Source of the DNA: Sedimenticola sp.
Lineage (GTDB): Bacteria; Pseudomonadota; Gammaproteobacteria; Chromatiales; Chromatiaceae
Direction: 5' to 3'
Assembly: GCA_026994195.1 (NCBI GenBank)
Contig: JALWRH010000088.1
Coordinates: 62,001 to 126,000, forward strand
Length of the DNA stretch: 64,000 nucleotides
A program made the position numbers and the translations under genes. Position 1 is the first letter of the stretch; the number at the start of each line of letters is the position of its first letter. The notes below the pieces were generated by a model. The model saw only the letters and a program-made list of their open reading frames with translations. It ran no database searches and was not told the origin of the DNA. Positions 12,170 to 32,698 of the stretch are shown one piece after another.

Positions 12170-12232
12170 TTTCCTATTTCCTGTTGTTGCCCATAAGGCA
12201 TGGGAACAAAACTTCCCTGTATAAAAGTATAG

Positions 12233-12251
12233 ACAAACCAGTTGGTCTGTT
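12233..12251. promoter_or_regulatory. TetR-type operator, site 1
   Basis: The imperfect palindrome acaAACCAgtTGGTctgtt lies in the divergent tetR/RND intergenic region. An identical 19-bp copy starts 34 bp downstream (centre to centre), about three helical turns away on the same face. The half-sites resemble the ACC-N4-GGT core of NemR-like boxes. Confidence 0.75.
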
Positions 12252-12266
12252 CTATTCTTTCTGCAA

Positions 12267-12285
12267 ACAAACCAGTTGGTCTGTT
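12267..12285. promoter_or_regulatory. TetR-type operator, site 2
   Basis: This is an exact second copy of the 19-bp palindrome at 12233-12251, about 43 bp upstream of the chosen RND start codon. It would occlude the leader or promoter of the efflux operon when the repressor is bound. Confidence 0.75.
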
Positions 12286-12327
12286 ATTTTGAATCCATCA
12301 TGCTTCCCGCAGAAGAGGCTGCAACCC

Positions 12328-14721: not shown

Positions 14722-14735
14722 CAGGAGATTCCCGT

Positions 14736-14807
14736 ATGCAACACACAGATGACAAACCTGCAGAACCCGCCATGAAACTGGCACGAAAAGGGGGGCTTCA
14801 GCCATGA
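14736..14807 (+). CDS. 23-residue mini-ORF coupling the RND and hydrolase genes
   Basis: An ATG at 14736, preceded by a good AGGAG site (~8 nt), opens a 23-codon frame (MQHTDDKPAEPAMKLARKGG...). It ends in TGA overlapping the next gene's ATG (ATGA at 14804-14807). It could be a translational-coupling leader, a tiny protein, or the stub of a lost gene. There is no recognisable homology. Its ribosome binding site is the only strong one before the hydrolase, which supports real translation. Confidence 0.45.
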   Translation: MQHTDDKPAEPAMKLARKGGLQP

Positions 14808-15769
14808 AAACTTTACTGGTGATCACCCTTCTGCTGTCCGGCATTCTGATCTTCTATGCCTATCTGTATTTTTCAGACCCGACGCCAGACAAGTTCGAAA
14901 TCGACAAAGAGCTGTTTCCCTATGAACCCCATTTTCTCAGTCTCCCCAACGGGGGACGCATGCATTACGTCGATGAAGGCCAGGGCCCCGTCCTGTTACT
15001 GCTGCACGGAAATCCCACCTGGTCGTTTCTGTACCGGCACATGGTGGCGGAGTTGTCCGGGCAGTTCCGGGTGATTGCCCCAGACTATCCCGGCTTTGGC
15101 CTGTCAACGGCAGGCAATGGGTATAAGTACACTCCGGCTGAACACGCCCGAGCCATCAGTTTGCTGATGACAACCCTCGATCTGCAGGAAGTCATCATCA
15201 TGGTCCAGGACTGGGGCGGCCCTATCGGTTTCAAAGCAGCGCTGGAGAACCCGGAGCGGGTGGCTGGCTTCATCATCGGCAACACCTGGGCCTGGCCGCT
15301 GGAGCGAAGGGGACAAAAAGGTTTCAGCATACTCATGGGCGGCTGGCCGGGGCAGTTTGGCGCCTGGTGCTGCAACATGGTGGTGCGTTTTTTCCTGTGG
15401 AAAGGCATAGCAGGGAAGCTGAACCAGCGTGAACTGGCCATGTATCTCGGGCCTTTCGCAAAACGGGAAAGCCGCTTACCCACCCACCTGTTTCCAGCAC
15501 AGCTACGCGGCGCCCAAGAGTTTCTGGCTGACATCCACCGACAGCTACCCTCCCTGGCAGACCGCCCCGTCCTGCTCACCTGGGGTCTTCAGGACTTCGC
15601 CTTCCAGGAACCCGAACGCACCCGCTTCGAAAAACTGTTCCCCCGCCATCAGACCCTGTTGCTGGAAAAGGCGGGTCATTTCATCCAGGAAGATGCGCCC
15701 ACGCAAATCAGCGCAGCCATCAGAGATTGGTACAAACACAATTTTCCCGGTTCACATGATACCCACTGA
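14804..15769 (+). CDS. Haloalkane-dehalogenase-like alpha/beta hydrolase, membrane-anchored
   Basis: This 321-residue alpha/beta hydrolase has an N-terminal hydrophobic anchor (residues 3-23). The signature HGNPTWS (68-74) places Asn70 as a halide-stabilising or oxyanion residue. Asp136 in VQDWGG is the nucleophile with Trp137 beside it, Asp264 is the likely acid and His292 the base. This layout matches haloalkane dehalogenases and near relatives. Natural substrates may be haloalkanes, epoxides or esters. Its place in an efflux/lipid operon hints at processing of a hydrophobic compound rather than degradation for growth (inference). Confidence 0.83.
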   Translation: MKTLLVITLLLSGILIFYAYLYFSDPTPDKFEIDKELFPYEPHFLSLPNGGRMHYVDEGQGPVLLLLHGNPTWSFLYRHMVAELSGQFRVIAPDYPGFGLSTAGNGYKYTPAEHARAISLLMTTLDLQEVIIMVQDWGGPIGFKAALENPERVAGFIIGNTWAWPLERRGQKGFSILMGGWPGQFGAWCCNMVVRFFLWKGIAGKLNQRELAMYLGPFAKRESRLPTHLFPAQLRGAQEFLADIHRQLPSLADRPVLLTWGLQDFAFQEPERTRFEKLFPRHQTLLLEKAGHFIQEDAPTQISAAIRDWYKHNFPGSHDTH

Positions 15770-15804
15770 CCCAGAATGGACCGGCCACGCATGAGGAGAG
15801 AAAC

Positions 15805-16329
15805 ATGACTGCATCACACTGCCACTGTCTGCATAGAGAAACGCCTTCCCACCCGGAAGAAAATCAAACAGATACCGATCATGCCAACGTACGCTTCCCC
15901 CCACCACTGATCCACTTGATCGCGGTTCTGGCCGCCGTCGGCCTGCGGAGACTGACGCCACTCAACCTGCCGGTTTCCTGGCTGCTCACGGGGTTCGGGG
16001 CAGGGGTCATGCTGTTGTCCCTGCTTCTTGCCGGATCGGCCTTCAGCCAGTTTGCGCGCAGCAACAATCCCGTACCGCCCAATCAACCTGTCAATGGCCT
16101 GATGACCCAGGGGCCATTTCGTTTCACGCGCAATCCCCTTTATCTCGCATTGGCCCTATTGCAACTGGGCATGGGTCTGATGACAGGTAATGGCTGGATA
16201 CTGGCAACCCTGCCCCCGGCACTGCTGACAGTGAGGTACTACGTCATTCGCCGGGAAGAGGCTTACCTGACCCGGCGTTTCGGCCTGGCTTACCAAGACT
16301 ACCAGAGCCGTGTACGGCGCTGGTTCTGA
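15805..16329 (+). CDS. ICMT/PEMT-like membrane methyltransferase
   Basis: This is a 174-residue integral membrane protein. After a His/Cys-rich, hydrophilic N-terminus (residues 1-35) come about four helices and the family core GPFRFTRNPLYLALALLQLG, then RREEAYLTRRFG--Y--Y---VRRW. These match isoprenylcysteine carboxyl methyltransferase/phospholipid methyltransferase-type enzymes, which use S-adenosylmethionine at the membrane. Bacterial members have varied or unknown substrates. GAGGAGAG precedes the ATG. It is the third main gene of the TetR-controlled operon. Confidence 0.85.
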   Translation: MTASHCHCLHRETPSHPEENQTDTDHANVRFPPPLIHLIAVLAAVGLRRLTPLNLPVSWLLTGFGAGVMLLSLLLAGSAFSQFARSNNPVPPNQPVNGLMTQGPFRFTRNPLYLALALLQLGMGLMTGNGWILATLPPALLTVRYYVIRREEAYLTRRFGLAYQDYQSRVRRWF

Positions 16330-16349
16330 CCGATAGGGAGAAAACGACA

Positions 16350-17144
16350 ATGACAAAAACTGTTCTGATATTGAGCATGCTGCTGACATCCCTTGGGACA
16401 GCAGCGGCAAATCTGCCGGATGGTGACGAGATTGCCCGGCGCATCAATGCCCGTGATGAAGGGCTGTCCGTAGCGCGGGATCTGACCATGCGCATGACCG
16501 ACCGGCGGGGCAAGTCCCGTACCCGGGAAACACGCGGCTTTCGCAAGTACTATGGCGAAGACAAGCGCACCGTCATCTTCTACCTGAGCCCCAAGAATGT
16601 TAAGGACACCGCTTTTCTCACCTGGGACTACGCCGACCCGGAGCGGGACGACGATCAATGGCTGTACCTGCCAGCCATGCGCAAGGTCCGGCGCATCTCC
16701 GCCTCGGATCGGGGAGACTATTTTCTTGGAACCGATCTCACCTATGAGGACATCAAGCTGGAAACCCGCGTCAGCATCCGCGACTATCATCGTAAAACCA
16801 AGGGTGAGGACGAAGTGGATGGGCACCCCTGCTACCTGCTGGAATCCACCCCGGTAGATGCAAAGACCGCCCGGGAACTGGGCTATGGGAAAGTGGAGCA
16901 GTGCGTGGACAAGGAGATCTGGATGACGCGCCGCGCCCGCTTCTGGGACACCAAGGGCAAACCACTGAAGACCGCCTATTTCCGGGATATCCGCAAGGTG
17001 CAGGGGATCTGGACCCAGCACCGCATCGAAGTCGAGAACCACAAGACCGGACACAAAACCCTGTTCCTGTTCAGCCATGTGGACTACCAGACCCTGGTTA
17101 GCGACAAGTGGTTTACCCGTGACGCCCTGAGACGGGGTCTGTGA
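16350..17144 (+). CDS. LolA-like outer-membrane lipoprotein-sorting protein
   Basis: This 264-residue exported protein has a signal peptide at residues 1-20. The body contains RDLTMRMTDRRGKSRTRE, KRTVIFYLSPKNVKDTAFLTWDY and DQWLYLPAMRKVRRIS. That pattern belongs to the LolA-like/DUF1329-type proteins that accompany MMPL pumps. The fold is a hydrophobic half-barrel likely to ferry lipid across the periplasm. A GGGAG site precedes the start, and the stop overlaps the next gene (TGATG). Confidence 0.87.
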   Translation: MTKTVLILSMLLTSLGTAAANLPDGDEIARRINARDEGLSVARDLTMRMTDRRGKSRTRETRGFRKYYGEDKRTVIFYLSPKNVKDTAFLTWDYADPERDDDQWLYLPAMRKVRRISASDRGDYFLGTDLTYEDIKLETRVSIRDYHRKTKGEDEVDGHPCYLLESTPVDAKTARELGYGKVEQCVDKEIWMTRRARFWDTKGKPLKTAYFRDIRKVQGIWTQHRIEVENHKTGHKTLFLFSHVDYQTLVSDKWFTRDALRRGL

Positions 17145-18472
17145 TGACACCTGCTTTTTCCTGCCTGCTGCTGTGCGGCCTGCTGTCCGCCCCGGCATTG
17201 GCCGATGAGGCCGATATCTCAAACTTTCTGAACGGCCACTGGGGTATCGGGAGCAATCAGGGCGGCACCCGGTTCTTCGAACTGACCTGGCAGCCAGAAG
17301 CCCGCTGGCGTTTTGATAATGGAGGGCGGCTTACCGGCATCACCCGGTTGCGCTGGCAAACCGTGGCCGGGATGCGGCCCACCGATATGGAGCGTGACAG
17401 CTACAGCACGGCAAGCAGACCCATCCTGACCAGCGACACCAGCGAGTTGGAACTGCGTGAGCTTTACTATGAACGCGGCATGGGCGACTGGTACCTCACC
17501 CTTGGCAAGCAACAGGTGGTCTGGGGCAAGACAGACGGCCTGAAGGTACTGGACGTGGTTGATCCACAGTCCTTCCGCAAGTTCATCCTGGAAGACTTTG
17601 ACCAGTCCCGCATTCCCTTGTGGACCCTCAACGCGGAATACGCCATCCCCGACTGGATGGGCGGAGACTGGACCCTGCAGCTGCTGTGGATTCCGGACCA
17701 GAGCTATCATGCCCTGCCCAAGCCCGGCGCAACCTTCGCATTCCACTCACCCCGACTGGTCCCACGGCCACCGCCAGGCGTTGGCGTACGCCTCAATGCC
17801 CCCAAGCGGCCAGACCGACTTATCCGGGATTCCGACATTGGCCTGCGTCTGAGCGGCTTTGTGGCTGGCTGGGACCTCAGTCTCAACTACCTCTACCAGT
17901 ATGACAACCGCCCGGCGCTGTATCAGCGGCCGGTTTCTGGCCCCCTGCCGATACTGGAGATCACGCCAAAATACCACCGTACCCATGTCATCGGCGGCTC
18001 CTTCAGCCGCGCTTTTGGTGACTGGGTGATAAGAGGAGAGATGGGCTATTTCAGCAATCATTACTTCCTCGACAGCACACCGGGCGCTGACCAGGGCTTG
18101 GCGCAAAGCGCCGAACTGAGCTACGTGCTGGGAATGGACTGGTCTGGCCTGGCGAACACCTTCATCAGCGCACAGCTGTTCCAGAGCTGGCTGCCGCATT
18201 ATCATGCAGGCATCACCCGACCCCGCCTCGACACCAGCCTGACGCTTCTGCTACGCCGGGCGTTCTGGAACGATACCCTGACCGCCGAACTGTTGTGGAT
18301 TGCCAACACCCGGGACGGAGACGGACTACTGCGGCCCAAGCTGCGCTATGAGTGGCGGGACAATCTGGAAACCTGGATCGGGATGGACCTGTTCTACGGC
18401 GACAGATCCGGTCTGTATGGACAGTTTGATGACAACGATCGTGTCACCATCAACGTCAGGTATGGTTTCTAG
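17144..18472 (+). CDS. DUF1302-like outer-membrane beta-barrel protein
   Basis: This protein of about 442 residues has a signal peptide ending near ALA-DE. Alternating aromatic beta-strands end in a C-terminal Phe (VTINVRYGF), as in outer-membrane barrels. The stretch LRELYYERGMGDWYLTLGKQ, then VVWGKTDGLKVLDVVDPQSFR, is typical of the DUF1302-type proteins found beside MMPL and DUF1329/LolA-like genes. A GTG three bases upstream (17141) is an alternative start. The gene converges with the RnfD/FG-GAP gene, and their 3' ends overlap by 17 nt. Confidence 0.85.
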   Translation: MTPAFSCLLLCGLLSAPALADEADISNFLNGHWGIGSNQGGTRFFELTWQPEARWRFDNGGRLTGITRLRWQTVAGMRPTDMERDSYSTASRPILTSDTSELELRELYYERGMGDWYLTLGKQQVVWGKTDGLKVLDVVDPQSFRKFILEDFDQSRIPLWTLNAEYAIPDWMGGDWTLQLLWIPDQSYHALPKPGATFAFHSPRLVPRPPPGVGVRLNAPKRPDRLIRDSDIGLRLSGFVAGWDLSLNYLYQYDNRPALYQRPVSGPLPILEITPKYHRTHVIGGSFSRAFGDWVIRGEMGYFSNHYFLDSTPGADQGLAQSAELSYVLGMDWSGLANTFISAQLFQSWLPHYHAGITRPRLDTSLTLLLRRAFWNDTLTAELLWIANTRDGDGLLRPKLRYEWRDNLETWIGMDLFYGDRSGLYGQFDDNDRVTINVRYGF

Positions 18473-21200
18473 CCCGAATCCGGTAATACCGTCCTGGCTG
18501 CAGATCGTATTGGGTCACATCCTTTCCACACCAGCGCACCCTGACGCTCACCTTTCCCTGCCAGCTTCCCAGGCCAAACAGCAGGCGCTGGTCTCCCTGG
18601 GCCGACAGGCCGTTGCTGGCATGGACTTCCCGCACCTGGCGCCGGACGGGATCACCATAGCGAATCTCCACCCGGCTGCCCACGGCATCTTTGTTGCAGT
18701 CCACCCCGTTGCCCTCCAGTTCCAGGCCGATCCAGCTTTTTTCCCCGGCATCGTTGCGGAAGATGCCCAGGGGCTGGAACTGATGGGTCATGAGCACGTC
18801 CAGATCACCATCGTTGTCCAGATCGGCCAGAGCTATCCCCCGGGCGTTGTCCTTCTGTGTCCAGCCCACCCGGTCCGCCACGTCCACGAAGAACCGGCCC
18901 TGGTTGAGCATCACCCGGTTTTTTTCGTAGGGAAAGATGCAGCGCCCGCGCAGATCCGCCCAGCTGTCGGCATAACCATGAATATCCGGCCCGGTCAGGG
19001 CGATGCGCGCATTCCAGTACCAGTAGTCCTCGCAGGTCGGATAGAGGCGGTCGTAGGCGTCGTCCACCATGCCGTTGGCGTGCAGGATGTCCAGGCGGCC
19101 GTCCCGGTCCATGTCCCCCATGGCGCCGCCCCAGCCGAAGCGCCGGGGGTTGAGGGCGTTGCGCCGGGTGGCTTCATCACGGAAGGCGTCCGCGCCCTCG
19201 GCATCCACCCGGCCATCGTTCATCCACAGGAGGCTGCCCTCGGCCTGCAGGGGCTCGTGAACATTGGACACGTAGATGTCGTCGAAGCCGTTGCCGTCGA
19301 TATCTCCCAGGGAGGCGTTCATGCCCTTGTAGGTATCCCGGCCCAGGGTGTTTCGCAGCACGCCGCGGATGGCCTCGAAGCGCTGTCCCCGGCGGTTGAT
19401 GTAAAGGGAATCGGGACCGAAGTCATTGGCCACGTACAGGTCCGTCCAGCCGTCGCCATTGAGATCGCCGGTGCCGATATCCAGGGTCCAGCGGGTCTCG
19501 CCCAGGCCCAGGCCGTCCACGTCCGCCGCTGCAAACCACCCCCGGCGATTGAAGAAGAACAGATCCTTGCCGCCGTTGGCGGCATTGTGCCAGGAGCGGT
19601 GCATGACGTTCAGGGCGCGGCGGTCGCCGGGGTATTCAGGATCGGGAAGATCGAAGATGGTGAAAGGCGTGGGCCGGTCGTAGCCGGAAAGATAGGGGGG
19701 CATGGCGTTGCCGATGTACAGATCCAGCCAGCCGTCGCGATCCATGTCCAGGACATTGGCGGTGAGGCTGACGGTGAAGGGGCGCCCGAGCTGTGTCTGG
19801 CTGACATCCTCGAAACCGGCCTCGCCCGTCTCCACCAGGCGGTTGGCCAGGAGGCGCGGATAACCGTAACCGCTGAGCACCAGCAGGTCCTGATCGCCGT
19901 CGTTGTCATAATCGAACCACAGGGCGCCGGAAGGCAGACCCTGGGTTTGGGGATGACGGACATAGTCGTCCAGGGCCGGCAGGGGCACACGCTGAAAGCG
20001 GAAGCCGCCCAGGTTGCGGTACAGGGCGGCCCGGTCCCGGGGCGCTTTCAGGGGATAGGTGATGAATACATCCTGCAGGCCGTCCTTGTCGAAATCCGCC
20101 ACCGCCACGGCATCCCCCACGGACAGCAGCCACTTGGCCACGTGCCGCAGGCGCGGGTCCACCTGCTGCAGCACCTGGCCGGGATGGGTGCTGATGCCCG
20201 CCTCCTCCGCCGGGATCTCCACCAGGACGAAGCCGGGGTCCACCTGGCTCATGGGCATGAGCCACAGGCGCCCCATCCCCAGCCCGGCGCCCGCCAGCAG
20301 CCCCAGGGCCGAGATCGTGCGCAGGCGCTCCCGCCAGTCGATGTGGCAGCGAAAACGTCCGGCGAGGATTTTGCGCCGCCCCCCTTGCGGCTTGGCCGGT
20401 TCCCTGCAGCTTTTCCACAAGCGCCACAACCCGTACAGGCTGTACCAGACGAAAGCCGCGTAGAACAGGGTGGAGAGGGCTTCCCGGATATGCAGGAAGA
20501 AATCCACCAGGACGATGACCAGGGCCATGAGCACCTGGCCCTTGCGGCTCTCCGGCGAAGTCGCCGGGTCGGTAATCATGAAGAAGGTGAACAGGTAAAA
20601 GGCCGGGGCGCTCAGGGTGCCCAGGATCAGGGTCTCCGGCGGAATGTGATGACGCATGATCCAGGCCCTCAGCCCCAGGCCGACAAGGAAGAAGCCGAGA
20701 AAGGCCACCACCAGCACGCTGCGCCGGATGCGCAGACCGAAGAGCAGGATGGCCGCCGTGGCGATGAACACTCCCAGGGCGGGAATACCGTTCCACTGGT
20801 AGGCCGGGGACACGCTGATCATGTCGTTGGCCAGGAACAGGCTGGCGACGATGCCGAACAAAGAGGGGTTGTACACATGCCGCCCGTCCACGCTGAACAG
20901 GTACTTGGAGCCGATGGCCAGGAACACCGGCACCAGGGGCAGCCACAGGCCATGGGCATAGTTCACCAGCAGGCTCAGGGAGAGGCCGGTGATAAGGGCG
21001 CTGAAGGGAAACAGCCAGCGCCCGCGGATGAGCCGGTGCAGGAACAGGTCCAGCACACAGGCAAAGACGATGACCACCGCCAGTTGCCCCGGCGTGCGGT
21101 TGAAGCCCAGCACCGTGATGCCCAGCCACAGGTAGAGCGCCTGCAGCAGGGCCACGGGCACGCGGGGGTCCTTCCAGTTGGGCACGCGTAGCCAGTTCAT
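18456..21200 (-). CDS. RnfD/NqrB-like membrane domain fused to FG-GAP and UnbV/ASPIC domains
   Basis: This 914-residue fusion starts with about 8-9 membrane helices (residues ~15-310) resembling the RnfD/NqrB family (SVDGRHVYNPSLFGIV; FFMITDPATSPESRKGQ). I see no S/D-G-A-T flavin-attachment motif. From about residue 370 follow at least seven Ca-binding FG-GAP/VCBS repeats (DFDKDGLQDVF, DYDNDGDQDLL, DMDRDGWLDLY, DLNGDGWTDLY, DIDGNGFDDIY, DMDRDGRLDIL, DLDNDGDLDVL). A C-terminal UnbV/ASPIC domain ends the protein. The propeller probably faces the periplasm. It is the last gene of a five-gene coupled operon (ATGA overlap). Confidence 0.88.
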   Translation of the reverse strand: MNWLRVPNWKDPRVPVALLQALYLWLGITVLGFNRTPGQLAVVIVFACVLDLFLHRLIRGRWLFPFSALITGLSLSLLVNYAHGLWLPLVPVFLAIGSKYLFSVDGRHVYNPSLFGIVASLFLANDMISVSPAYQWNGIPALGVFIATAAILLFGLRIRRSVLVVAFLGFFLVGLGLRAWIMRHHIPPETLILGTLSAPAFYLFTFFMITDPATSPESRKGQVLMALVIVLVDFFLHIREALSTLFYAAFVWYSLYGLWRLWKSCREPAKPQGGRRKILAGRFRCHIDWRERLRTISALGLLAGAGLGMGRLWLMPMSQVDPGFVLVEIPAEEAGISTHPGQVLQQVDPRLRHVAKWLLSVGDAVAVADFDKDGLQDVFITYPLKAPRDRAALYRNLGGFRFQRVPLPALDDYVRHPQTQGLPSGALWFDYDNDGDQDLLVLSGYGYPRLLANRLVETGEAGFEDVSQTQLGRPFTVSLTANVLDMDRDGWLDLYIGNAMPPYLSGYDRPTPFTIFDLPDPEYPGDRRALNVMHRSWHNAANGGKDLFFFNRRGWFAAADVDGLGLGETRWTLDIGTGDLNGDGWTDLYVANDFGPDSLYINRRGQRFEAIRGVLRNTLGRDTYKGMNASLGDIDGNGFDDIYVSNVHEPLQAEGSLLWMNDGRVDAEGADAFRDEATRRNALNPRRFGWGGAMGDMDRDGRLDILHANGMVDDAYDRLYPTCEDYWYWNARIALTGPDIHGYADSWADLRGRCIFPYEKNRVMLNQGRFFVDVADRVGWTQKDNARGIALADLDNDGDLDVLMTHQFQPLGIFRNDAGEKSWIGLELEGNGVDCNKDAVGSRVEIRYGDPVRRQVREVHASNGLSAQGDQRLLFGLGSWQGKVSVRVRWCGKDVTQYDLQPGRYYRIRARNHT

Positions 21201-22303
21201 ACCGCCCCCATCTCCACGTGGGGCAGCCGGCCATCCAGGGCATCGAAGGCCGCCTGGTCTTCCGCATAATGCACGGCGAACAGCTGGCCCGCGGCTTGGA
21301 TGCGCCGGTATTCCCGGAGTACGGCGCTCAGGGGATGCTCCTCATGCAGGCCGGCGATGAAATAATGCCAGGGGCCTTTGCGGTAACGCGCGTACACATG
21401 GGAAAGCAGCTGGCGAAAGACTGCGCTGTCATCATCGGCAATGGCGCACAGAGCCAGGTAGAAATAGGGAACGCGCGCGCCAGGCTCCGGCAGGGCTTTC
21501 AAGGGCGTCATACGCGACAGCAGGTTGTAGAAAGGGCGCAGCCGGGCCAGCCCGGGGCTGTATTTCTCCACATGGGTCTGGCGAAAGTCTTTCTGATCCC
21601 AGGCGGCCAGCACCCCCACCAGCCGGTTGCCTTTTATCGCCAGGTGAATGTCCCTGGCCCGCAAGCCTCGCAGCCGCCCTTTGCCCAGGTCTGTAGCGGC
21701 ATACAGGGGCGCAAACTGTTTGCCTGCGTATTGTCGGTTGATGAAACGAAACACCTCGTCGAGATTGTCTTCCCTTGCCGTCTCGATGTGAATTCCCCGC
21801 TGCCGAATCCGGCGCCGGGGCAGGTCCAGGTGCACCGCCGGCGTGAGCATGCGACCCAGGGGCCTGTAACAGGGCAGCCCGGCCCGCCCGCTGGCAATGG
21901 TTTTAATGGCGAGATCATTGCCTTCCAGGATCACGGAATAATACAAAGGAACCGGCTGTGCCTCGTGCAGTTCCCGAAGAAAACGGTAACCCCGGGCCAG
22001 CAAAGTTCCTCCCCGGTAGGCAGGATCGCCACGCAGGTCGGCCAGGTAGCCCAGGGCGCGGGCTTCGCCGTTGATCCAGGCAGGCGACACCAGGCGCGCG
22101 CCCATGCCCGCCAGGGCGCCGGTGCGCCGGTCCACGCACTTGATGACCTGCGCCCGCTCCCCCTGAACCGCGGCGCCGAGAAAGTAGGAAGGCTCCCGGC
22201 GAAAGCTCACGGCAATGGAGCCCTCTAGCACGTCCCGGGCCATGCGCCGGCGCAGGGCGGCATCGTCCCTCTCGTCCGCCAGGCTGAAGACGAAGCGGCT
22301 CAC
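21197..22303 (-). CDS. GNAT-like N-acyltransferase
   Basis: This 368-residue protein appears to have an acyl-CoA N-acyltransferase fold. Visible features are an N-terminal MARDVLEGSIAVSFRREPSYF segment, then GMGARLVSPAWINGEARALGYLADLRGDPAYRGGTLL, which resembles the GNAT acetyl-CoA/acyl-donor loop. A second half begins at PLYYSVILEGN. The distinct protein at 30941-31672 shares the PLYW-LIVKG-like segment. It overlaps both neighbours by ATGA, so it probably works with the GH3 enzyme on an acyl transfer. The substrate is unknown. Confidence 0.7.
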   Translation of the reverse strand: MSRFVFSLADERDDAALRRRMARDVLEGSIAVSFRREPSYFLGAAVQGERAQVIKCVDRRTGALAGMGARLVSPAWINGEARALGYLADLRGDPAYRGGTLLARGYRFLRELHEAQPVPLYYSVILEGNDLAIKTIASGRAGLPCYRPLGRMLTPAVHLDLPRRRIRQRGIHIETAREDNLDEVFRFINRQYAGKQFAPLYAATDLGKGRLRGLRARDIHLAIKGNRLVGVLAAWDQKDFRQTHVEKYSPGLARLRPFYNLLSRMTPLKALPEPGARVPYFYLALCAIADDDSAVFRQLLSHVYARYRKGPWHYFIAGLHEEHPLSAVLREYRRIQAAGQLFAVHYAEDQAAFDALDGRLPHVEMGAV

Positions 22304-23808
22304 GCACGGGCCTCCAGGTAATGCAGGAAGGCATCATCGAGCAGCAGGGCCAGGGGCTTTATGTCCCCCAGGCGCTGCCCCTGCTCCAGCCGCCAGTCCA
22401 GGTAATGTTTCCCGACACCCGGATGGACTTTGATCCGCAGTTCCGCCAGTTGTCCCAGGCGCCGCGCATACGCGTACTGGGGATTGTCCTGGAGCGCCTT
22501 CTCCAGGTCGATTTCCAGGGGGCTTTGGGCGATACAGACATAATGGGGGCGAGGCTGCATGAGCGGCATCAGCAAAGCCAGATCCCTGTGACCTTCCAGT
22601 ACCCTGGCAACGAAGGCCTCATCCAGTTTCTCGCCGCACAGATCCACCTGCCGGGCGCCCCGCCCGAGAAAGCGCAGCATGGGAAGCCCCCGGTATTCGC
22701 CGGTCATTTGCACGCGATCCCCCAGCCGGTAGCGGTAAAGCCCCAGGTTGTTGCTCATCACCACTTCATACACTCCGTCCTGCTCCAATTCCCAGGCCAG
22801 GCGCATGCCGCCATCCTCATCCAAAAACTCAAAGAAACCGCTGCGGGCGGCCAGCACCGGCATGGGCGCGTCTTCCAGGGGCAGGCTTACCACGCCTTCC
22901 GTGGCCAGCAGCCCCTTGGGCTGGATGCGGGCCTGGGGAAATCGTTCCTCCAGGGCCGGAACAAAAGCTCCGGCATGCCCGTGGGTCCAGCAGCTGATGG
23001 TGTCCAGGCGCGGCCACAGGACCCGGGTATTGACGCGCCCATCAGCCAGGGCGCGCTCCAGACGCTGTCCCGATTCTCTATCCAGTTGCGCGAGGAGCGC
23101 CGGGGCCAGCGCCTCCAGACCATCCAGCAGGTTGAGAAGAAAGGTCGGGCTCCACACGGATGCCAGGCGCAGCTCCGGATTGCGCAGCAGGTGCAGGAGG
23201 GTCTGGCGCTGCCATTCCCGGCGATCCTGCAGCCGCCCCACGGAAGGCGGCACGGCCAGGGTGCGGGCGAGTTGCCCGGCCAGGGCTTCACCGAAATACA
23301 GGGCATCGTTCTCCAGTCCCACGGGCAGGCCCTTGCCGCTCCCGGCCTCCCGTGCCAGGGCAGGACTGATGGACCAGTAAGCCGGTCCTTCCATAATTGC
23401 CGGACGCCTGTCCAGCAGATCGTCCAGCCAGGGAAAGAGCGCCGCCTGGAAATCCTCCAGGCCAGCGGGACCATAGGGGATATACTTGATCCCGCCGCTG
23501 CTGCCTCCGGTGATCTCCAGAAAGGCCGTGTCCGCGCTCAGCACCTGAGGATGCGCGGAGCTGATCTTCCCCACCCACGCCTGGACCTGAGCAGCATCCT
23601 GCACCGGTACCGCCTGGCGGTAGGCTTCGATGCTGCGCAGGTCGGCAAAACCGTGGCGGCGGCCAAAGTCCGTGTCCGCCTGCCGCTGCAGCAGCTGGTG
23701 AAGATACGCCTGTTGCTGCCCGGGCAGATCCCGGGTCTGCGCCAAGAAGTCCCGGCGGCCATGCCGCAGTGTCCTCCGCAGGATCTGCCAGGCGGCAGGC
23801 GCTGTCAT
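22300..23808 (-). CDS. GH3 family acyl-adenylate-forming enzyme
   Basis: This protein of about 502 residues resembles GH3 proteins, which adenylate a carboxylic acid and transfer the acyl group to an amino group or thiol. Recognisable segments are the P-loop-like FLEITGGSSGGIKYIPY, then SCWTHGHAGAFVPALEERFP, GLLATEGVVSLPL, YEVVMSNNLGLYRYRLGDRV and FLGRGARQVDLCGEKLDE. The ATG at 23808 overlaps the desaturase stop (ATGA), so the longer in-frame upstream extension is rejected. In bacteria GH3 proteins are poorly studied. Linkage to a desaturase and a GNAT suggests a fatty-acyl conjugate product (inference). Confidence 0.88.
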   Translation of the reverse strand: MTAPAAWQILRRTLRHGRRDFLAQTRDLPGQQQAYLHQLLQRQADTDFGRRHGFADLRSIEAYRQAVPVQDAAQVQAWVGKISSAHPQVLSADTAFLEITGGSSGGIKYIPYGPAGLEDFQAALFPWLDDLLDRRPAIMEGPAYWSISPALAREAGSGKGLPVGLENDALYFGEALAGQLARTLAVPPSVGRLQDRREWQRQTLLHLLRNPELRLASVWSPTFLLNLLDGLEALAPALLAQLDRESGQRLERALADGRVNTRVLWPRLDTISCWTHGHAGAFVPALEERFPQARIQPKGLLATEGVVSLPLEDAPMPVLAARSGFFEFLDEDGGMRLAWELEQDGVYEVVMSNNLGLYRYRLGDRVQMTGEYRGLPMLRFLGRGARQVDLCGEKLDEAFVARVLEGHRDLALLMPLMQPRPHYVCIAQSPLEIDLEKALQDNPQYAYARRLGQLAELRIKVHPGVGKHYLDWRLEQGQRLGDIKPLALLLDDAFLHYLEARA

Positions 23809-24755
23809 TCCATCACCTCGTAGCCCCTGCGCGACAGGCAATCCGGTCCTTTTTCCCGGCAGGGTCGCGGTCCTTTCCACAGGCGCAGGTACTGTGTCCA
23901 GTAGCCACGGTCATATTCCATGCCCTTTGCCAGGGTTGGCAGATGTTTCCAGGAGACATGGGGATGTTGATGATGCAGCCTGTCCCACTGGCCGTTGAGC
24001 AGGGTGAGGCCGTGCAGCCGCCCCACGCGCAGGTTCCAGGCGCCGTTCACGACGTCCCGGGGTGTGAAGGCATGGGTGACATACTGGCGGGTGGCCCAGT
24101 TGAAACCGAACAGGGCATACAACAGGAACAGCGCCCCCCAGTCCAGCTCCAGGAGCCGGAAAGCCAGGATCCAGAAGACCAGCCCCAGCACCGTCTCCCG
24201 GCGCACCCGGGCGATCTCCTTCGGCCCGAAATCATCGAACAGCGCCTGAGTGGTGCGCGCCCGGCGAAACGGCGGCGAGCGCAACCAGGCGGGATGGATG
24301 GCTAACAGCAGGCTGCCCAGAGGCACCAACCACCACCAGGCGCCGGTCAGCAGTCCATACCACTGAATCCACTTGATGACCCGGCTGTCCTCCGGGTAAT
24401 AGCAGTCGAACATCTCATGATCCGAACGGTTGCAGCAGTGATGCACCACGTGGGTCACTTTCATCAGGGTGAAGGAGACCGGGAACAACCAGCTCAGCGC
24501 CACGCCAACGCCATCGTTGACCCGGGGATCGGCATGCAACAGGTCATGGGTGGCTTCATGAATGAGCTGGTGGTTGGTAAGCAGCAACTGGGCAAACACC
24601 AGGCCGCAGAGCAGCTGCCCGGGCAGGGGCAGGCGGGACGCTGTCAAAAGGAGCAACAAGGCGCCGGCAGACACCGTGGCGGCAAGGACCAGGTTGAGCT
24701 TCCCCGGCAAAGGCTGGCCCTGGGCGCTGCCCGATGGCTGGGCCTTATCCTGCAT
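23805..24755 (-). CDS. Membrane fatty acid desaturase
   Basis: This di-iron membrane desaturase of about 316 residues shows three histidine clusters: HQLIHEATH, HVVHHCCNRSDHE and DRLHHQHPHVSW. Four membrane helices separate them. Enzymes of this family introduce double bonds or hydroxyls into acyl chains, carotenoids or sphingoid bases; the exact substrate is not evident. I chose the ATG at 24755, which overlaps the ankyrin gene end by 11 nt. An in-frame ATG at 24800 is possible. The gene is coupled to GH3 by ATGA. Confidence 0.9.
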   Translation of the reverse strand: MQDKAQPSGSAQGQPLPGKLNLVLAATVSAGALLLLLTASRLPLPGQLLCGLVFAQLLLTNHQLIHEATHDLLHADPRVNDGVGVALSWLFPVSFTLMKVTHVVHHCCNRSDHEMFDCYYPEDSRVIKWIQWYGLLTGAWWWLVPLGSLLLAIHPAWLRSPPFRRARTTQALFDDFGPKEIARVRRETVLGLVFWILAFRLLELDWGALFLLYALFGFNWATRQYVTHAFTPRDVVNGAWNLRVGRLHGLTLLNGQWDRLHHQHPHVSWKHLPTLAKGMEYDRGYWTQYLRLWKGPRPCREKGPDCLSRRGYEVME

Positions 24756-26772
24756 CAATTGCCAATAACTCCTGAAAAACTTCCGCGCGCTTTTCTGCAT
24801 AATCCATCGCCGTTTTGCCACTGTCATCGGATATGCCGCGGTGGGCTCCAGCTTCCAGCAACATTTGCACCGATATTGCATCCTCGTTGGCCACCGCTAC
24901 GATCAGTGCGCTTCGCCCCTTGGCGTCCACGGCGTCGACATCCGCACCCGCAGCCAGCAACTGGGCCAGGATATCCTGATCCCACTGGCCATGATGCGCC
25001 GCCATCACCAGGGCAGGCATTTCCTCGGCATGCAGCAAGGCACCATACTCCTCTTGCAGATCCAGAATGCTTCCCGCCAGACTGGAGTGATGTTCCAAAC
25101 CCTCTCGCCGCTCATTCTTGCACTGTTCTCCTGAGGGCTCTTCGCTATCCTGTGGCGCACGAATGCGTATTCTTGTATCTGGATTGGCTGAGGCGGCCAG
25201 TAGGCGTGATACCAAGCCGGGGCGGCTCTTCCACACTGCGCGTCCCAGAGCCGTGTTACCGTCGGCCCCTTGGGCTTCCACAGACAGCTCCACCTTTCCC
25301 AGCAGGAAATCCAGGCAGCACTTCGCATCGCGATCCGTTGCCAGCCACAACAAAGAGGCGTGGCATTCCGCCCGCAATCCTTCCGCGCCATGGATTTCCC
25401 ACAACTGCTGAAGCCGTCCGGCATCATCTCTTGCCAGGGCTTCAGACACCTTCCTGGCCGGGCTCAGCCGATCCGCCAGCTCGTGCAGAGCCGCTTGCAG
25501 TGCCCTTTTGGGGGGGATATCCCCAAAATCATGAGCACAGCACTTCTCGATCACCTTCTCCTGCCATTTACTCAACTGCCGGGGCAGATGCTCCACGAGC
25601 AGGGCTACGGTTTCCGCCGCTCCCCATCCGACGGCATACTCCAACAAGGTTTCTTGTTCATGGACTCTGAACCCGGTCTTTTCCCAACTGATGAAAAAAG
25701 GATCAGGTGCCTCATCTCCCAGTATCAAGGCCAACATCTCCGGCCGGTCGTGTTCGGCACACTCGTTGATCAAGCGCCCACGCGCGCTATCCCAAGCTTC
25801 CAGGTCGGATTTTTCTCCATCCCGTTCCTGAAACACTGTTTCCAGGTTGTGCTCTGCCAGAATGGCATGCAGCTTGGTCAAATCGTTGTGGAAAATGGCG
25901 GTAATCAAATCCCAGAAGGCATCGCCTTCATATGCATCCTTGGGGGGAACGAGCTTGGCGCCAAGCGCCAACATCTCTTGGGTCACATCGGGCGACGCCA
26001 TCATCTGCCACAGCAAGCTGCCCTTGCGTCCGCCTATGGACGGCTTGACACCCTGGTGAAGGAGAAAGCGCACCACGTCCACGGCATCCCGATGGCGCAT
26101 CTCCACGGCCAGAAACCAGTGGGTGAAGGAGTAAGGCTTGGTAGAGGAAAAATCCAGGCCCAGTTCCTGGAGACGTTCCAACAGCGGCAGGTTACATGTC
26201 TGCACCGCGGAAGTCATCAGCAGACGCTGCTCCCGGACATCTTTCGGCAGCCAAGCTGCCGATTCCATGAGTCTGAGAGGGAAACGCCGCCAGCTCCTGC
26301 TGTTAATCCCCCAGGTCACCAAGGGCATGTCATCGATGCGCTCGGGAAGTTCCCGGCCTTCCCGCAACCAGGCAATGGCCTGGGCTTCCGTGGCCCCGTC
26401 GAGAATCGATACGGGACGGTGATTGCCTTCTTCTTCTGGCTCACCCACCTGATCATTGAAGACCCGGAGCTTAAGCGTGCAGGGCAGGGCCTCCGCCAGG
26501 CAACGGTAGAATGCCTCGGGAAGATAACCGCCGGGCGGCCCCATGAGCACCAGGGTCAGGCGGCTACCGTTCAATACCAGCTTTTCCGGATAAAAGTCCT
26601 CCAGGTCCTGCAATGCCACGGGATTCAGCCCGCTCTGCCTGCCTAACTGGTTCAGATGATGCACGACAGCTTCATAATTTTCCGTTTCAAAAGGAAGCAG
26701 GGCCTGATGCAATTTCTTTGCATTTTCCGGGTCTTTGCACGACCATTTCAAGGTGTACCAGTTTGCAGACAT
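24745..26772 (-). CDS. Large ankyrin-repeat protein
   Basis: This 675-residue protein has no signal peptide or membrane helix. Ankyrin repeats are clear at the C-terminus (VMAAHHGQWDQDILAQLLAAGADVDAVDAKGRSALIVA, then NEDAISVQMLLEAGAHRG-SDDSGKTAMDYA) and weaker ones lie throughout (GNTALGRAVWKSRPGLVSRLLAASANPD). The first ~170 residues form an unrecognised domain. It is the first gene of the desaturase-GH3 operon, has a GAGGAAGAA leader, and probably scaffolds or inhibits protein partners. It is divergent from the 26806 gene. Confidence 0.85.
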   Translation of the reverse strand: MSANWYTLKWSCKDPENAKKLHQALLPFETENYEAVVHHLNQLGRQSGLNPVALQDLEDFYPEKLVLNGSRLTLVLMGPPGGYLPEAFYRCLAEALPCTLKLRVFNDQVGEPEEEGNHRPVSILDGATEAQAIAWLREGRELPERIDDMPLVTWGINSRSWRRFPLRLMESAAWLPKDVREQRLLMTSAVQTCNLPLLERLQELGLDFSSTKPYSFTHWFLAVEMRHRDAVDVVRFLLHQGVKPSIGGRKGSLLWQMMASPDVTQEMLALGAKLVPPKDAYEGDAFWDLITAIFHNDLTKLHAILAEHNLETVFQERDGEKSDLEAWDSARGRLINECAEHDRPEMLALILGDEAPDPFFISWEKTGFRVHEQETLLEYAVGWGAAETVALLVEHLPRQLSKWQEKVIEKCCAHDFGDIPPKRALQAALHELADRLSPARKVSEALARDDAGRLQQLWEIHGAEGLRAECHASLLWLATDRDAKCCLDFLLGKVELSVEAQGADGNTALGRAVWKSRPGLVSRLLAASANPDTRIRIRAPQDSEEPSGEQCKNERREGLEHHSSLAGSILDLQEEYGALLHAEEMPALVMAAHHGQWDQDILAQLLAAGADVDAVDAKGRSALIVAVANEDAISVQMLLEAGAHRGISDDSGKTAMDYAEKRAEVFQELLAIDAG

Positions 26773-26805: not shown

Positions 26806-27489
26806 ATGAAACACTCGTCAAGCAAGGGGCCTGATGCATTCCAACTCGCCCTTCTCTATTTTCCCCTGCTCTACCTGTCCCTGGGGATCATCATTCTGTT
26901 CCAGTTGCGCGGTCTGGGCGCCAGCCTGGTGTTTGCCGCCGGCTGGATCTACCTGGCGCCGCCCCTGCTGTGCCGCCTCACCCTGGCCCTGTTCGGCCCG
27001 CCCGTGACCGCGGATGCCAGCCCCGAAAGCCGCGAGTTCCGCGTCTGGTGGTTTCTTACCCAGGTGCAGATGATCTTCAACCGCATTGGCGTACTGGAAG
27101 AGCTGCTGCGCCTGGTGCCGGGCTTGTACGGCAGTTGGCTGTCCCTGTGGGGCTCCAGGGTGAGCCCCTTCTCCTTCTGGGCCAGGGATATCCTGGTCAG
27201 TGAACGCTACCTGCTCCGGGTGGAGAAAGGCGCCCTCATCGCCAGCCAGTGCGGTCTTGCCGGACATGTGGTCACCCTGGACGACCAGGGCCGATATCAC
27301 TTGCTGGTCGCTCCCATCCGGGTGGGCGCCGGTGCCATTCTGGGCATACGTTCCGGACTTGGTCCCGGCTGCCAGGTGGCCGCGGGGGAAATGCTGCCTG
27401 CCGGACGTCTGCTGCCACCTTTTACCTGCTGGCAGGACGGCCGCAAGCAGGCCTGTACCAACCAGAACGATCTGTCACAGCAGCAATGA
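26806..27489 (+). CDS. Membrane protein with a hexapeptide (left-handed beta-helix)-like C-terminus
   Basis: This protein of about 227 residues starts with two or three membrane helices (residues ~10-75). It ends with a sequence of hexapeptide rhythm (APIRVGAGAILGIRSGLGPG, then CQVAAGEMLPAGRLLPP) that resembles the acyltransferase left-handed beta-helix. Its start is 33 nt from the divergent ankyrin gene, so the two may share regulation. The track frame extends back into the ankyrin gene, which I reject. It may be an acyltransferase-like partner of the GH3 operon. Identification is tentative. Confidence 0.65.
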   Translation: MKHSSSKGPDAFQLALLYFPLLYLSLGIIILFQLRGLGASLVFAAGWIYLAPPLLCRLTLALFGPPVTADASPESREFRVWWFLTQVQMIFNRIGVLEELLRLVPGLYGSWLSLWGSRVSPFSFWARDILVSERYLLRVEKGALIASQCGLAGHVVTLDDQGRYHLLVAPIRVGAGAILGIRSGLGPGCQVAAGEMLPAGRLLPPFTCWQDGRKQACTNQNDLSQQQ

Positions 27490-27501: not shown

Positions 27502-28818
27502 TCAGGAACCGCTGAAACTCACCCCTTCGAACAGCATGGACGGCGTGCGCAGGCTGGAATAGGGCCAGGGATCATTGCCCAGGGCCACCAGGTTGCTGAA
27601 CAGGTCCCTCAGGTTACCGGTCACATTCATCTCGCCTACAGGTTCTACGATTTGTCCCTTGCGGATGAGATGCCCGCGCAGCCCCAGGGAAAACTCGCCC
27701 GTGGTATTGTCCGCATTGCCCCCCAGCCAGGAAGTGACATAGATGCCGTCCCCCGCCGCTGCCAATAGATCCGGCAGAGACTGGTGGCCGGGCTCGACCA
27801 GCAGGTTGGAGCGGCTGCCGGTGGTGGGCGCCATCTTCAGCTTGCGCCCATAGTAAGTGTCTGCGTAGATGTTCCGCACCACGCCCTTCTCCACCAGGGT
27901 CAGGGATCGGGCGGCGATGCCCTCTCCATCGTACAAGCGGGATCCCAGCCCTCGGGGTAAAAGAGGATCATCCGTCAGGGTCAGATTCTTGCTGAACATC
28001 TTCCTGCCGATCTGCCCCAGCCAGAAGGAACGCTTCTGCTGGAAGGCCCGGGCTGTGGCGCCTCCCACCAGAGATGAGATCAGCCGCCCGGCGGCCCTGG
28101 CATCAACCACCATATAGCCCTTGAGACTGGGACCCTTGCGGACCCCCAGGCGTTGGCGCACGCGTTTCAGGGCTTCCCGGGCAATGGCCTGTACCGGGGG
28201 CATGTCCGCCAGCTGCCGGGTTCCGGGATAGAAGCCTGTGGAAGCGCGTTTGTCGCCCTGATCATGGAAAGTCAGATCTGCTCCCATCCACAGGGAGGTG
28301 CCTGCCTGTTCACCCTGGAAGCCGTTGCTGCTCAGCACCAGGGAGCGGCTGCTGCCGTCATAGACGGCACAGCTCGCGGAAATCAGCCGCTTATCACCTT
28401 GAATTCCTTCATACAGTTCTTTGCACCACGCCAGGCGTTGGGCGGGCTGCAAATTCCTGATGGCCGGATCCACGAGTTCCAGGTCTTTGCCACTGCGGCC
28501 CTTGAAAAGCTCCGGTGGCGTGATCTTGCGGAACGGGTCTTTCTGCAGGGCGCGGGTCAGGCCAACGGCATTGGCAACGAAAGTGCCCAGAGTCTGCTCC
28601 CGCAGATCCGTAGTGGAATGGCTGGCATAGCGGCCATCCACATACAGGGCGACAGACAGCGTCCGGGAAGTGGCGTCCTTTACCTTCTCCAGTTTGCCAT
28701 CCCGGTATTCATGGCTTACGTCGCGGCTGCGTACCACGTTCACCCAGGCATCCTGCGCTCCGGCCTTGCGTGCCAGTTCCAGGGCCTGTTCCGCCGCCAG
28801 GCGCATCTTATCCGGCAT
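27502..28818 (-). CDS. Second PmbA/TldE-type protein
   Basis: This 438-residue paralogue of PmbA has ELARKAGAQDAWVNVVRS at the start and VSHEYRDGKLEKVKDATSR, then a C-terminal STGEFSLGLRGHLIRKGQI-like region, all family features. It has no HExxxH motif. It overlaps the second TldD gene by 11 nt. It lacks an obvious twin-arginine or Sec signal, unlike its partner, so how the pair meets is unclear. It converges with the 26806-27489 gene, with 12 nt between their stops. Confidence 0.9.
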   Translation of the reverse strand: MPDKMRLAAEQALELARKAGAQDAWVNVVRSRDVSHEYRDGKLEKVKDATSRTLSVALYVDGRYASHSTTDLREQTLGTFVANAVGLTRALQKDPFRKITPPELFKGRSGKDLELVDPAIRNLQPAQRLAWCKELYEGIQGDKRLISASCAVYDGSSRSLVLSSNGFQGEQAGTSLWMGADLTFHDQGDKRASTGFYPGTRQLADMPPVQAIAREALKRVRQRLGVRKGPSLKGYMVVDARAAGRLISSLVGGATARAFQQKRSFWLGQIGRKMFSKNLTLTDDPLLPRGLGSRLYDGEGIAARSLTLVEKGVVRNIYADTYYGRKLKMAPTTGSRSNLLVEPGHQSLPDLLAAAGDGIYVTSWLGGNADNTTGEFSLGLRGHLIRKGQIVEPVGEMNVTGNLRDLFSNLVALGNDPWPYSSLRTPSMLFEGVSFSGS

Positions 28819-30331
28819 GCTCGCCTCCCACGGTCATCCTGGAAACCAGTACCGAGGGCATGCCCAGAGACACCGGCACGCTCTGGCCGTTCTTGCCACA
28901 AGTCCAACCGCCGGTATCCATATGGCTGTCATTTCCGACCATGGTAATGTCCTTCAACACCTGGGGGCCGTTGCCAATGATATTGCAGTCTTTAATAGGC
29001 GCCGTGATTTTTCCGTTCTCCACCAGCCAGCCGTTCTTGATGTAGAAGGTGAAATCCCCGGCGCCAATGGATACCTGTCCATTGGTATAGGTTTCCGCCA
29101 CGATGCCTTTCTTCATGGAGGCAATCATCTCTTCACGGCTGTGGGGGCCGTTCTCCATGAAGGTGCAGGTCATGCGCGGCATGGGCGCGTGCCGATAGGA
29201 TTCCCGCCGCCCGGAACCGCTCGGGGACACCTTGTAATGGCGGGCGGAGATGCCGTCGTGCAGATAGCCGCGAAGTATGCCCTTGTCCACCAGGACATTG
29301 CGCCGGGAGGGATTGCCTTCGTCATCGTAGTTGAGGGCGCCACGCTCGTAGGCCAGGTTTCCCTGGTCGACGATGGTCACCTGGGAATCCGCCACCTTCT
29401 TATTCAGCATGTCGGAATAGATGCTGGTACCCTTGCGGTTGAAGTCCGCCTCCATGCCATGGCCGATAGCTTCGTGCAGCAGGATGCCACTGGCTCCGGC
29501 GGCAAGCAGGACAGGCATCTCCCCCGCCGGGGGACGGCGGGCGTCGAACAGCACCAGGGTGTTGTCCACGGCCTTCTTCGCCAGAGCCTGCAGACGCTCA
29601 TCGGTATAGTGATCCATGCCATAACGCCCGGACAGGTTGGCGGAGGTGGATTGCTGCACACCGTTCTTTTCCGCCGTCACTGTGCACCACAGGCGAGTCA
29701 TGGGGCGGTAGTCCGCCACCATGCGGCCATCCAGGGTGGCGATCACCACCTGTTGCTCATAGTCCGACCAGTTGATGGTGACTTTCTTCACCGCCTCATC
29801 CTGCCGTCGCGCCAGCTTCTCCAGCTGGCGTACCCGGTCCAGCTTGTCATCGACTTTCACTTCGGACCAGGGCAGGGCGATGCGGTACATGTCGCCGCTG
29901 CGGCTGACGTTAAAATGTTGTGGTGGCACGGCCTTGCTTCCTTTGGCGATGGCCGCTGCCGTGCGTGCCGCTTCGAGCATGGCCTCCAGGGAAAGGTCCT
30001 CGGTATAGGCGTACCCTGTCTGGTCGCCAATCACCACCCGCAGCCCGACGCCCTGTTCAATCCAGGAACGCGCGGAACTGATGACCTGGTCTTCCATGGC
30101 AATGGAGTTGCCGCGGTTGTGCTCGAAATACAGGTCTGCGGCATCCGCTCCATGTTTCACCAGTTCCCCCAGGACTCTGCGCATGACCACTCCATCCACG
30201 TTGAACCAGTTCAGAAAGGGCTGATCCGGCACATGGTTGGGAACTTTTACAGCAGCAGCCTGCAAGATCCGGGGAGCACTCAACATCACTCCAGATGCAG
30301 CGGTAGCGGTCAGAAAATCTCTGCGTTTCAT
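28808..30331 (-). CDS. TldD-family zinc protease with a twin-arginine signal
   Basis: This protein of about 507 residues is homologous to TldD, with the zinc motif HEAIGH at about residues 286-291 (counting from the chosen ATG) and a conserved Cys in GGWTCGKNGQSVPV near the end. Unlike TldD at 7803 it begins with MKRRDFLTATAASGVMLSAP, a twin-arginine (Tat) signal. It therefore probably acts, or is folded with metal, outside the cytoplasm. A TTG nine bases upstream is an alternative start; the ATG at 30331 has GAGGAGG about 12 nt upstream. It overlaps its PmbA-like partner. Confidence 0.9.
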   Translation of the reverse strand: MKRRDFLTATAASGVMLSAPRILQAAAVKVPNHVPDQPFLNWFNVDGVVMRRVLGELVKHGADAADLYFEHNRGNSIAMEDQVISSARSWIEQGVGLRVVIGDQTGYAYTEDLSLEAMLEAARTAAAIAKGSKAVPPQHFNVSRSGDMYRIALPWSEVKVDDKLDRVRQLEKLARRQDEAVKKVTINWSDYEQQVVIATLDGRMVADYRPMTRLWCTVTAEKNGVQQSTSANLSGRYGMDHYTDERLQALAKKAVDNTLVLFDARRPPAGEMPVLLAAGASGILLHEAIGHGMEADFNRKGTSIYSDMLNKKVADSQVTIVDQGNLAYERGALNYDDEGNPSRRNVLVDKGILRGYLHDGISARHYKVSPSGSGRRESYRHAPMPRMTCTFMENGPHSREEMIASMKKGIVAETYTNGQVSIGAGDFTFYIKNGWLVENGKITAPIKDCNIIGNGPQVLKDITMVGNDSHMDTGGWTCGKNGQSVPVSLGMPSVLVSRMTVGGEHAG

Positions 30332-30353
30332 GCCAATCAATAGCCTCCTCGAT

Positions 30354-30944
30354 TCATTTCTTCTTTCGCAACAGCCGCAGCAGTAGCAGCATGGCCAGAG
30401 CTCCAGCGACCGCTCCAGCCGCCGCCATGGTCCAGAGGTTCTGCTGGGCGGCGGCCAGCACGGGATTGTCCATCAAGTTTACCCCAGAATGGAATGCGGC
30501 AATCTTCCAGCCATCAGGCTGGCGCACCAGGGTAGCGGTCCACTTGGCGGGGATCATCACCTCCGCGCCGGTTTTCAATACATAGATGTCATCAGAATGG
30601 CCATAGGCGATGGCTACATTGTCCCCGATGAAGCGGGAGGGCGCATCGGCTTCCGGCGTCACCGTAATGCTTTTTAGGGGCGCGGATTCACCCACGAAAT
30701 ATTTTTCTACGAAGTCATCCAGCTGCGCAGCATCAGTCATGCGCTGCTGATCCACCATGGTGATGACGAACTCCGTTGCCAGCAGGCTGCGCAGCTTCAC
30801 CATATCCTGCTTGTTGATGGCTTCGCTGGCCTGGGCCATGAGCTGGCGCAACTGTTGGTGATCTCCTTCGCGATCCTCCTTTGCCACGGCCAGGGATGAA
30901 AAAGCCAGCAGGCCCAGCATCAGCAGTGCGTAGATTCTGTTCAT
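30354..30944 (-). CDS. NTF2/SnoaL-like protein with signal peptide and C-terminal anchor
   Basis: This 196-residue protein has a Sec signal (residues 1-21, ending AVA-KE). An NTF2-like fold follows (DREGDHQQLRQLMAQASEAI, KLRSLLATEFVITM, then DGWKIAAFHSGVNLM). A C-terminal membrane helix with a KKK tail ends it (residues ~165-195). The fold is a small cone used for binding or catalysis. It probably projects into the periplasm and overlaps the upstream GNAT gene by ATGA. Confidence 0.83.
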   Translation of the reverse strand: MNRIYALLMLGLLAFSSLAVAKEDREGDHQQLRQLMAQASEAINKQDMVKLRSLLATEFVITMVDQQRMTDAAQLDDFVEKYFVGESAPLKSITVTPEADAPSRFIGDNVAIAYGHSDDIYVLKTGAEVMIPAKWTATLVRQPDGWKIAAFHSGVNLMDNPVLAAAQQNLWTMAAAGAVAGALAMLLLLRLLRKKK

Positions 30945-32676: not shown

Positions 32677-32698
32677 GCTCCCTGCCCTGCTCATGAGT

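Follow-up and report, generated by a model that had tools for sequence, protein, structure and literature searches.

The window, by which we mean the whole stretch of 64,000 nucleotides from Sedimenticola sp. that was analysed, holds five overlapping open reading frames on its minus strand, for an ankyrin-repeat protein (ANK), a desaturase (DES), a GH3 enzyme, an acyltransferase (GNAT) and a fusion of an RnfD-like membrane domain with an FG-GAP domain (UnbU-UnbV). Pfam models for Ank, FA_desaturase, the N-terminal and central GH3 domains (GH3, GH3_M) and NQR2_RnfD, FG-GAP and UnbV_ASPIC matched these frames. When the junctions were read directly, those of DES/GH3 and GNAT/fusion were ATGA overlaps and that of GH3/GNAT was GTGA. 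ANK and DES overlap by 11 nt if DES starts with the ATG at 24755, a start that agrees with the point where the homology of its relatives begins. Thus, the four overlaps described in the first-pass annotation are present, except that GH3/GNAT is not of the ATGA type as it had stated. The overlaps suggest that the five proteins are probably produced together. Upstream lies a second minus-strand operon, Rieske-GNAT2-SnoaL, with overlaps of 4 nt at both of its junctions. The genes of the locus are as follows, in window coordinates.

10623-11222, plus strand: F14, a small membrane protein that belongs to the UnbU-UnbV module, at one island edge next to pmbA1 (directly beside it in G006 and G008)
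11567-18472, plus strand: block of TetR (itself on the minus strand), MMPL transporter, haloalkane-dehalogenase-like, ICMT-like, LolA-like and DUF1302 genes by family matches, inside the island; possibly an exporter; absent between the fusion and F14 in G008
18456-21200, minus strand: UnbU-UnbV fusion, RnfD-fold membrane domain, FG-GAP propeller and ASPIC/UnbV domain in one chain; homologue of enediyne E5 and E4 (Pfam, colinear tblastn, invariant UnbU residues)
21197-22303, minus strand: GNAT, tandem-GNAT N-acyltransferase
22300-23808, minus strand: GH3-family acyl-adenylating amide synthetase, not OlsH
23805-24755, minus strand: DES, membrane fatty-acid desaturase with three His boxes (HEATH, HVVHH, HHQHPH); recurs in clusters
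24745-26772, minus strand: ANK, ankyrin-repeat protein, a lineage-specific intruder outside the conserved unit
26806-27489, plus strand: hexapeptide-like membrane-anchored protein, unit member
27502-30340, minus strand: second PmbA/TldD pair (TldD2/PmbA2), a lineage-specific addition within the island (in G000, G006, G014 and G003)
30354-30944, minus strand: SnoaL-like protein (Pfam SnoaL-like/DUF4440) with N- and C-terminal hydrophobic segments by hydropathy, unit member; recurs in clusters of both types
30941-31672, minus strand: GNAT2, single-GNAT acyltransferase with a GTG start, core enzyme
31669-32694, minus strand: Rieske oxygenase of the UnbU-UnbV module (Pfam Rieske/VanA_C), at the island edge adjoining gltD

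Comparison with congeneric genomes defined the unit to which these genes belong. In G006, G008 and G014 a divergent hexapeptide-like gene is followed by DES, GH3, GNAT and the fusion, and ANK is missing from this syntenic position. The contigs of G008 and G014 end inside this gene set, and in both genomes DES and GH3 are separated by an AurF-like di-iron gene. A near-empty site is seen in five congeners that lack the cluster (G001, G007, G011, G012 and G013), where gltD adjoins pmbA1-tldD1; the gap between gltD and pmbA1 is 55 bp in G001. Two G008 contigs, ordered gltD-Rieske-GNAT2-SnoaL-hexapeptide-DES and GH3-GNAT-fusion-F14-pmbA1, make up a compact island of conserved families. Because of the empty gltD/pmbA1 site and this contig order, the island in the window is taken to extend from F14 (10623) to the Rieske gene (32694). 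DES, GH3, GNAT and the fusion are parts of this larger island, which is inserted between gltD and pmbA and is patchy within the genus (4/15 genomes).

ANK, TldD2/PmbA2 and the block at 11567-18472 are additions to the island. No full-length relative of ANK was found among 14 congeneric genomes, where mainly the ankyrin repeats matched, and against the Dot/Icm ankyrin effector equivalogs it scored 45 bits or less, with cut-offs of 500 or more. MMPL genes also occur near three other loci, and the MMPL block of the window may be a chance neighbour. The five-gene unit of the first-pass annotation therefore needs to be redrawn: its linkage of DES, GH3, GNAT and the fusion is borne out by the same linkage in other genomes, and the divergent hexapeptide-like gene that it had tentatively included does belong, being present in G006, G008, G014 and distant clusters. 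ANK falls outside, and the unit is bigger than proposed, with the Rieske-GNAT2-SnoaL operon and F14.

Two further observations were made in the congeners. Beside gltD in G003, a short broken-off Rieske match is followed by TldD2/PmbA2 (L173, 471-3577), which resembles the remnant of a lost island. G008 has two GH3 versions, on contigs C97 and C11 (L010, L011), at 62% and 99% to that of the window, while the adjacent GNAT genes are 95-99% identical; this could reflect either a mixture of strains or an exchange of GH3.

The last gene of the operon had been taken for an RnfD-type protein. In tblastn, more than 80% of this protein aligned colinearly with adjacent Streptomyces plasmid genes annotated as "CRTAC1 family" and "RnfD-like", and some of these gene pairs were annotated as enediyne biosynthesis proteins. 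In Streptomyces globisporus C-1027 the CRTAC1/RnfD-like pair is flanked by DUF1702 genes on one side and, on the other, by a type I polyketide synthase (PKS) that is followed by SgcE6. From gene order, we take E3 to be DUF1702, E4 to be CRTAC1 (UnbV) and E5 to be the RnfD-like protein (UnbU). All enediynes share a cassette ordered E3/E4/E5/E (PMC5181780), which the C-1027 gene order fits, so that the pair corresponds to E4/E5. In an alignment, the UnbU domain of the fusion shared 22 invariant residues with six enediyne UnbU proteins. The fusion has the membrane-domain family NQR2_RnfD_RnfE in common with the Rnf/NQR complex (RnfD, NqrB), but it scored 30.4 bits against the rnfD model, whose cut-off is 207, and the (S/G)ATPL flavinylation segment of true RnfD is missing from window-type UnbU and enediyne UnbU alike. 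An Rnf electron-transport subunit was ruled out by this score and the missing segment; two real RnfD genes lie elsewhere in the genome. The last gene is thus E5 (UnbU) fused to E4 (UnbV), without an enediyne PKS or E3.

Related cassettes occur elsewhere. Plasmid psymA of the legume symbiont Sinorhizobium meliloti T073 (NZ_CP021805; L097, 10892-17403) carries an unannotated cassette of DUF1702, UnbV, UnbU and an enediyne-type PKS. A gammaproteobacterial cassette (L151, 9920-16426) has DUF1702, UnbV, UnbU and a PKS with 52% identity to the C-1027 enzyme across the part that was compared. On a Serratia proteamaculans plasmid (NZ_MT039191; L096, 6111-18940), DUF1702, UnbV and UnbU adjoin small KS/ACP/SDR and EgtD-like genes and not a large enediyne PKS.

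The GH3 profile matched plant GH3 structures, and motifs of the plant enzymes line up with its TGGSSGGIK region, ATE and GLYRYRLGD. Since the nucleotide-binding motifs are kept, and from what is known of the family, the enzyme probably adenylates an acid and transfers it to an amine. GNAT has no Pfam match; its AlphaFold model (mean pLDDT 95) is that of a tandem GNAT, as the acyltransferase assignment of the first-pass annotation would have it. The closest PDB structures are MAB_4324 (7q3a, a tandem GNAT) and N-myristoyltransferases, with TM scores of about 0.6. The GNAT fold of both acyltransferases is supported by confident models (pLDDT 96 for GNAT2) and Foldseek E values down to 2e-14 and 3e-07. 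The likeness of the GNAT model to N-myristoyltransferase, at about 10% identity, hints weakly at long acyl groups. Both proteins might carry out further acyl transfer from CoA or a carrier protein.

When genome contigs were scanned with a GH3 alignment, 80 loci were obtained, which belong to Gammaproteobacteria, Betaproteobacteria, Planctomycetota, Verrucomicrobiota, Acidobacteriota, Gemmatimonadota, Chloroflexota, Synergistota, Bacteroidota and others. Eight more loci brought the set to 88, of which 81 had GNAT and 79 had GNAT2. Most of the loci come from metagenome assemblies, and genes of the relatives were called from ORFs and tblastn. As GH3 was the criterion by which these 88 loci had been selected, genome samples taken independently of the cluster were used as well. 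Among 369 genomes of the class, GH3 was found in 14 and a full-length UnbU-UnbV fusion in five, one of them split over two contigs and with two in-frame stops; in 5/5 carriers GH3 lay about 1.1-1.2 kb upstream of the fusion, with GNAT between them. In a sample of 398 genomes across the phylum, eight had GH3 and the window's genome alone had the fusion; the unbiased survey of the fusion thus covers the window's own phylum. Around further GH3 genes there were full clusters of a radical SAM type (G186, G468 and G488) and minimal GNAT2-GH3-GNAT triads (G575 and G572), while two weaker GH3 matches (G355 and G336) had none of the cluster partners in their neighbourhood. The GNAT2-GH3-GNAT core is therefore a widespread cluster type of many phyla, and no published description of it or of the UnbU-UnbV cluster was found in the open-access literature searched. 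The minimal triad of G575 adjoins an HlyD gene and has an AraC regulator, and that of G572 adjoins HlyD and MFS transporter genes. Because of these neighbours, the gene content points to a product that is probably exported.

In most other clusters, two B12-binding radical SAM enzymes stand where the window has UnbU-UnbV. Massilia glaciei B448-2 is a cultured carrier of the UnbU-UnbV type, and Chthoniobacter flavus Ellin428 one of the radical SAM type. In 55 loci GH3 is flanked by 4 kb or more on each side; of these, 12 had UnbU-UnbV and 43 had radical SAM genes, with both in two (Fisher p 1.4e-7, in a test that ignores relatedness). Weak radical SAM matches (25-28%) occur in three UnbU-UnbV loci, two of which are among the 55. 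With the radical SAM family F4 as a stricter marker, 0/16 UnbU-UnbV loci and 38/41 others were positive. F14 was found in 13/16 UnbU-UnbV loci and 0/41 radical SAM loci, and full-length relatives of the Rieske protein were restricted to UnbU-UnbV loci and two loci at contig ends. A GH3 tree (quick method, SH-aLRT only) requires three or more changes between the two states. This gene content is most simply explained if the Rieske/F14/UnbU-UnbV set and the radical SAM pair act at the same point of the pathway. In chlorophyll synthesis, the B12 radical SAM enzyme BchE and the O2-dependent AcsF serve the same step in different organisms; the exchange proposed here is similar, and is drawn from gene content alone.

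We consider it reasonably likely that an acquired biosynthetic island, made up of DES, GH3, GNAT and the fusion together with Rieske, GNAT2, SnoaL, the hexapeptide-like gene and F14, makes an exported, amide-linked and oxidatively modified lipid-like metabolite. GH3 would turn a carboxylic, probably fatty, acid into an acyl-adenylate and couple it to an amine, and the tandem GNAT and GNAT2 would make further acyl-amine linkages. Oxidation of the lipid-like chain, within the membrane or at it, would fall to DES, the Rieske oxygenase and the membrane-bound UnbU-UnbV/F14 pair, with the Rieske/UnbU-UnbV/F14 module in place of the two radical SAM enzymes, and the finished product would be exported. 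DES and the Rieske oxygenase suggest such an oxidation; the top curated relative of the Rieske protein is a methylsterol monooxygenase, far below its cut-off. UnbU-UnbV may likewise act oxidatively, and the missing RnfD flavinylation segment leaves a flavin-based oxidase role unproven. An amide-forming, lipid-like pathway, in line with the acyl conjugate of the first-pass annotation, fits this gene content. Further points against the proposal are that GH3 in the congeners is more divergent (62%) than the neighbouring genes and that the export genes vary from cluster to cluster.

A different product may be considered. In planctomycetes, the bacterial GH3 enzyme OlsH makes N-acyl ornithine (PMC12493201), and the island might similarly make a structural membrane aminolipid resembling ornithine lipid and not an exported metabolite. 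Many of the clusters are hosted by Planctomycetota, and desaturase, PAP2 and alpha/beta-hydrolase-like genes recur in them, but the window GH3 scored 37.5 bits against the OlsH NCBIfam equivalog with a cut-off of 620, the cluster is patchily spread in the genus, and exporter genes accompany the minimal clusters; we regard an aminolipid as a rather unlikely product. An enediyne- or polyyne-like product, with UnbU-UnbV working as in enediyne pathways, is improbable. It would agree with the homology of the fusion to E5 and E4 and with the desaturase genes, but the window genome has no enediyne PKS (ketosynthase matches of 30-34%, all in FabF-sized frames) and no DUF1702/E3 match at E 0.01, an empty result that in itself is weak evidence, and neither was found in the related islands. 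Because the PKS and a DUF1702 match are absent from the window genome, an enediyne biosynthetic cluster was ruled out although homologues of E4 and E5 are present.

The remaining alternatives concern the island itself, and both are very improbable. Chance adjacency was what a neighbourhood comparison might have revealed according to the first-pass annotation, and it does hold for ANK, which like TldD2/PmbA2 and the genes at 11567-18472 is lineage-specific; for DES, GH3, GNAT and the fusion it is refuted, since the genes other than these additions are found together both across phyla and in the unbiased samples. TldD/PmbA pairs inside and beside the island could indicate a modified peptide, with TldD/PmbA as the protease. 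However, neither the G008 island nor the clusters of other phyla contain the inside pair, and the outside pair occurs in nearly all genomes of the genus and adjoins gltD even where there is no island. TldD/PmbA was ruled out as island core, since conservation of the cluster does not extend to the pair.

Two pathways are among the known systems closest to the island. The enediyne cassette E3/E4/E5/E/E10 of C-1027 and tiancimycin contains the same two domains as the fusion, E4 (UnbV, FG-GAP/ASPIC) and E5 (UnbU, RnfD-like), whereas in the window they are fused in the order E5-E4, without E3 or PKS, and are accompanied by GH3, GNATs, Rieske and desaturase. In the OlsH/OlsI ornithine-lipid pathway of Singulisphaera (PMC12493201) a GH3-family enzyme is likewise expected to make an N-acyl amide, and some of the GH3 clusters have alpha/beta-hydrolase-like genes as a further likeness, but the window GH3 is far under the OlsH cut-off and the island has two GNAT enzymes and an oxidative module in addition.

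E3, E4 and E5 occur in every enediyne cluster and are called indispensable, and they have no settled role (PMC5181780, PMC11069151). Here, E5 and E4 form one protein in a small cluster without PKS or E3; in other clusters of this kind a B12 radical SAM pair apparently stands in for that protein. This setting narrows the possible functions of E4 and E5 and makes them testable, in a simpler place for two of the three proteins. More speculatively, and in our view rather doubtfully, UnbU-UnbV might be a general membrane-bound oxidase of hydrocarbon chains, acting on the polyene in enediyne pathways and on a lipid amide here, equivalent to the B12 radical SAM pair. If so, the products of these clusters, in many phyla, would form a new class of lipid amides that are oxidatively remodelled and exported.
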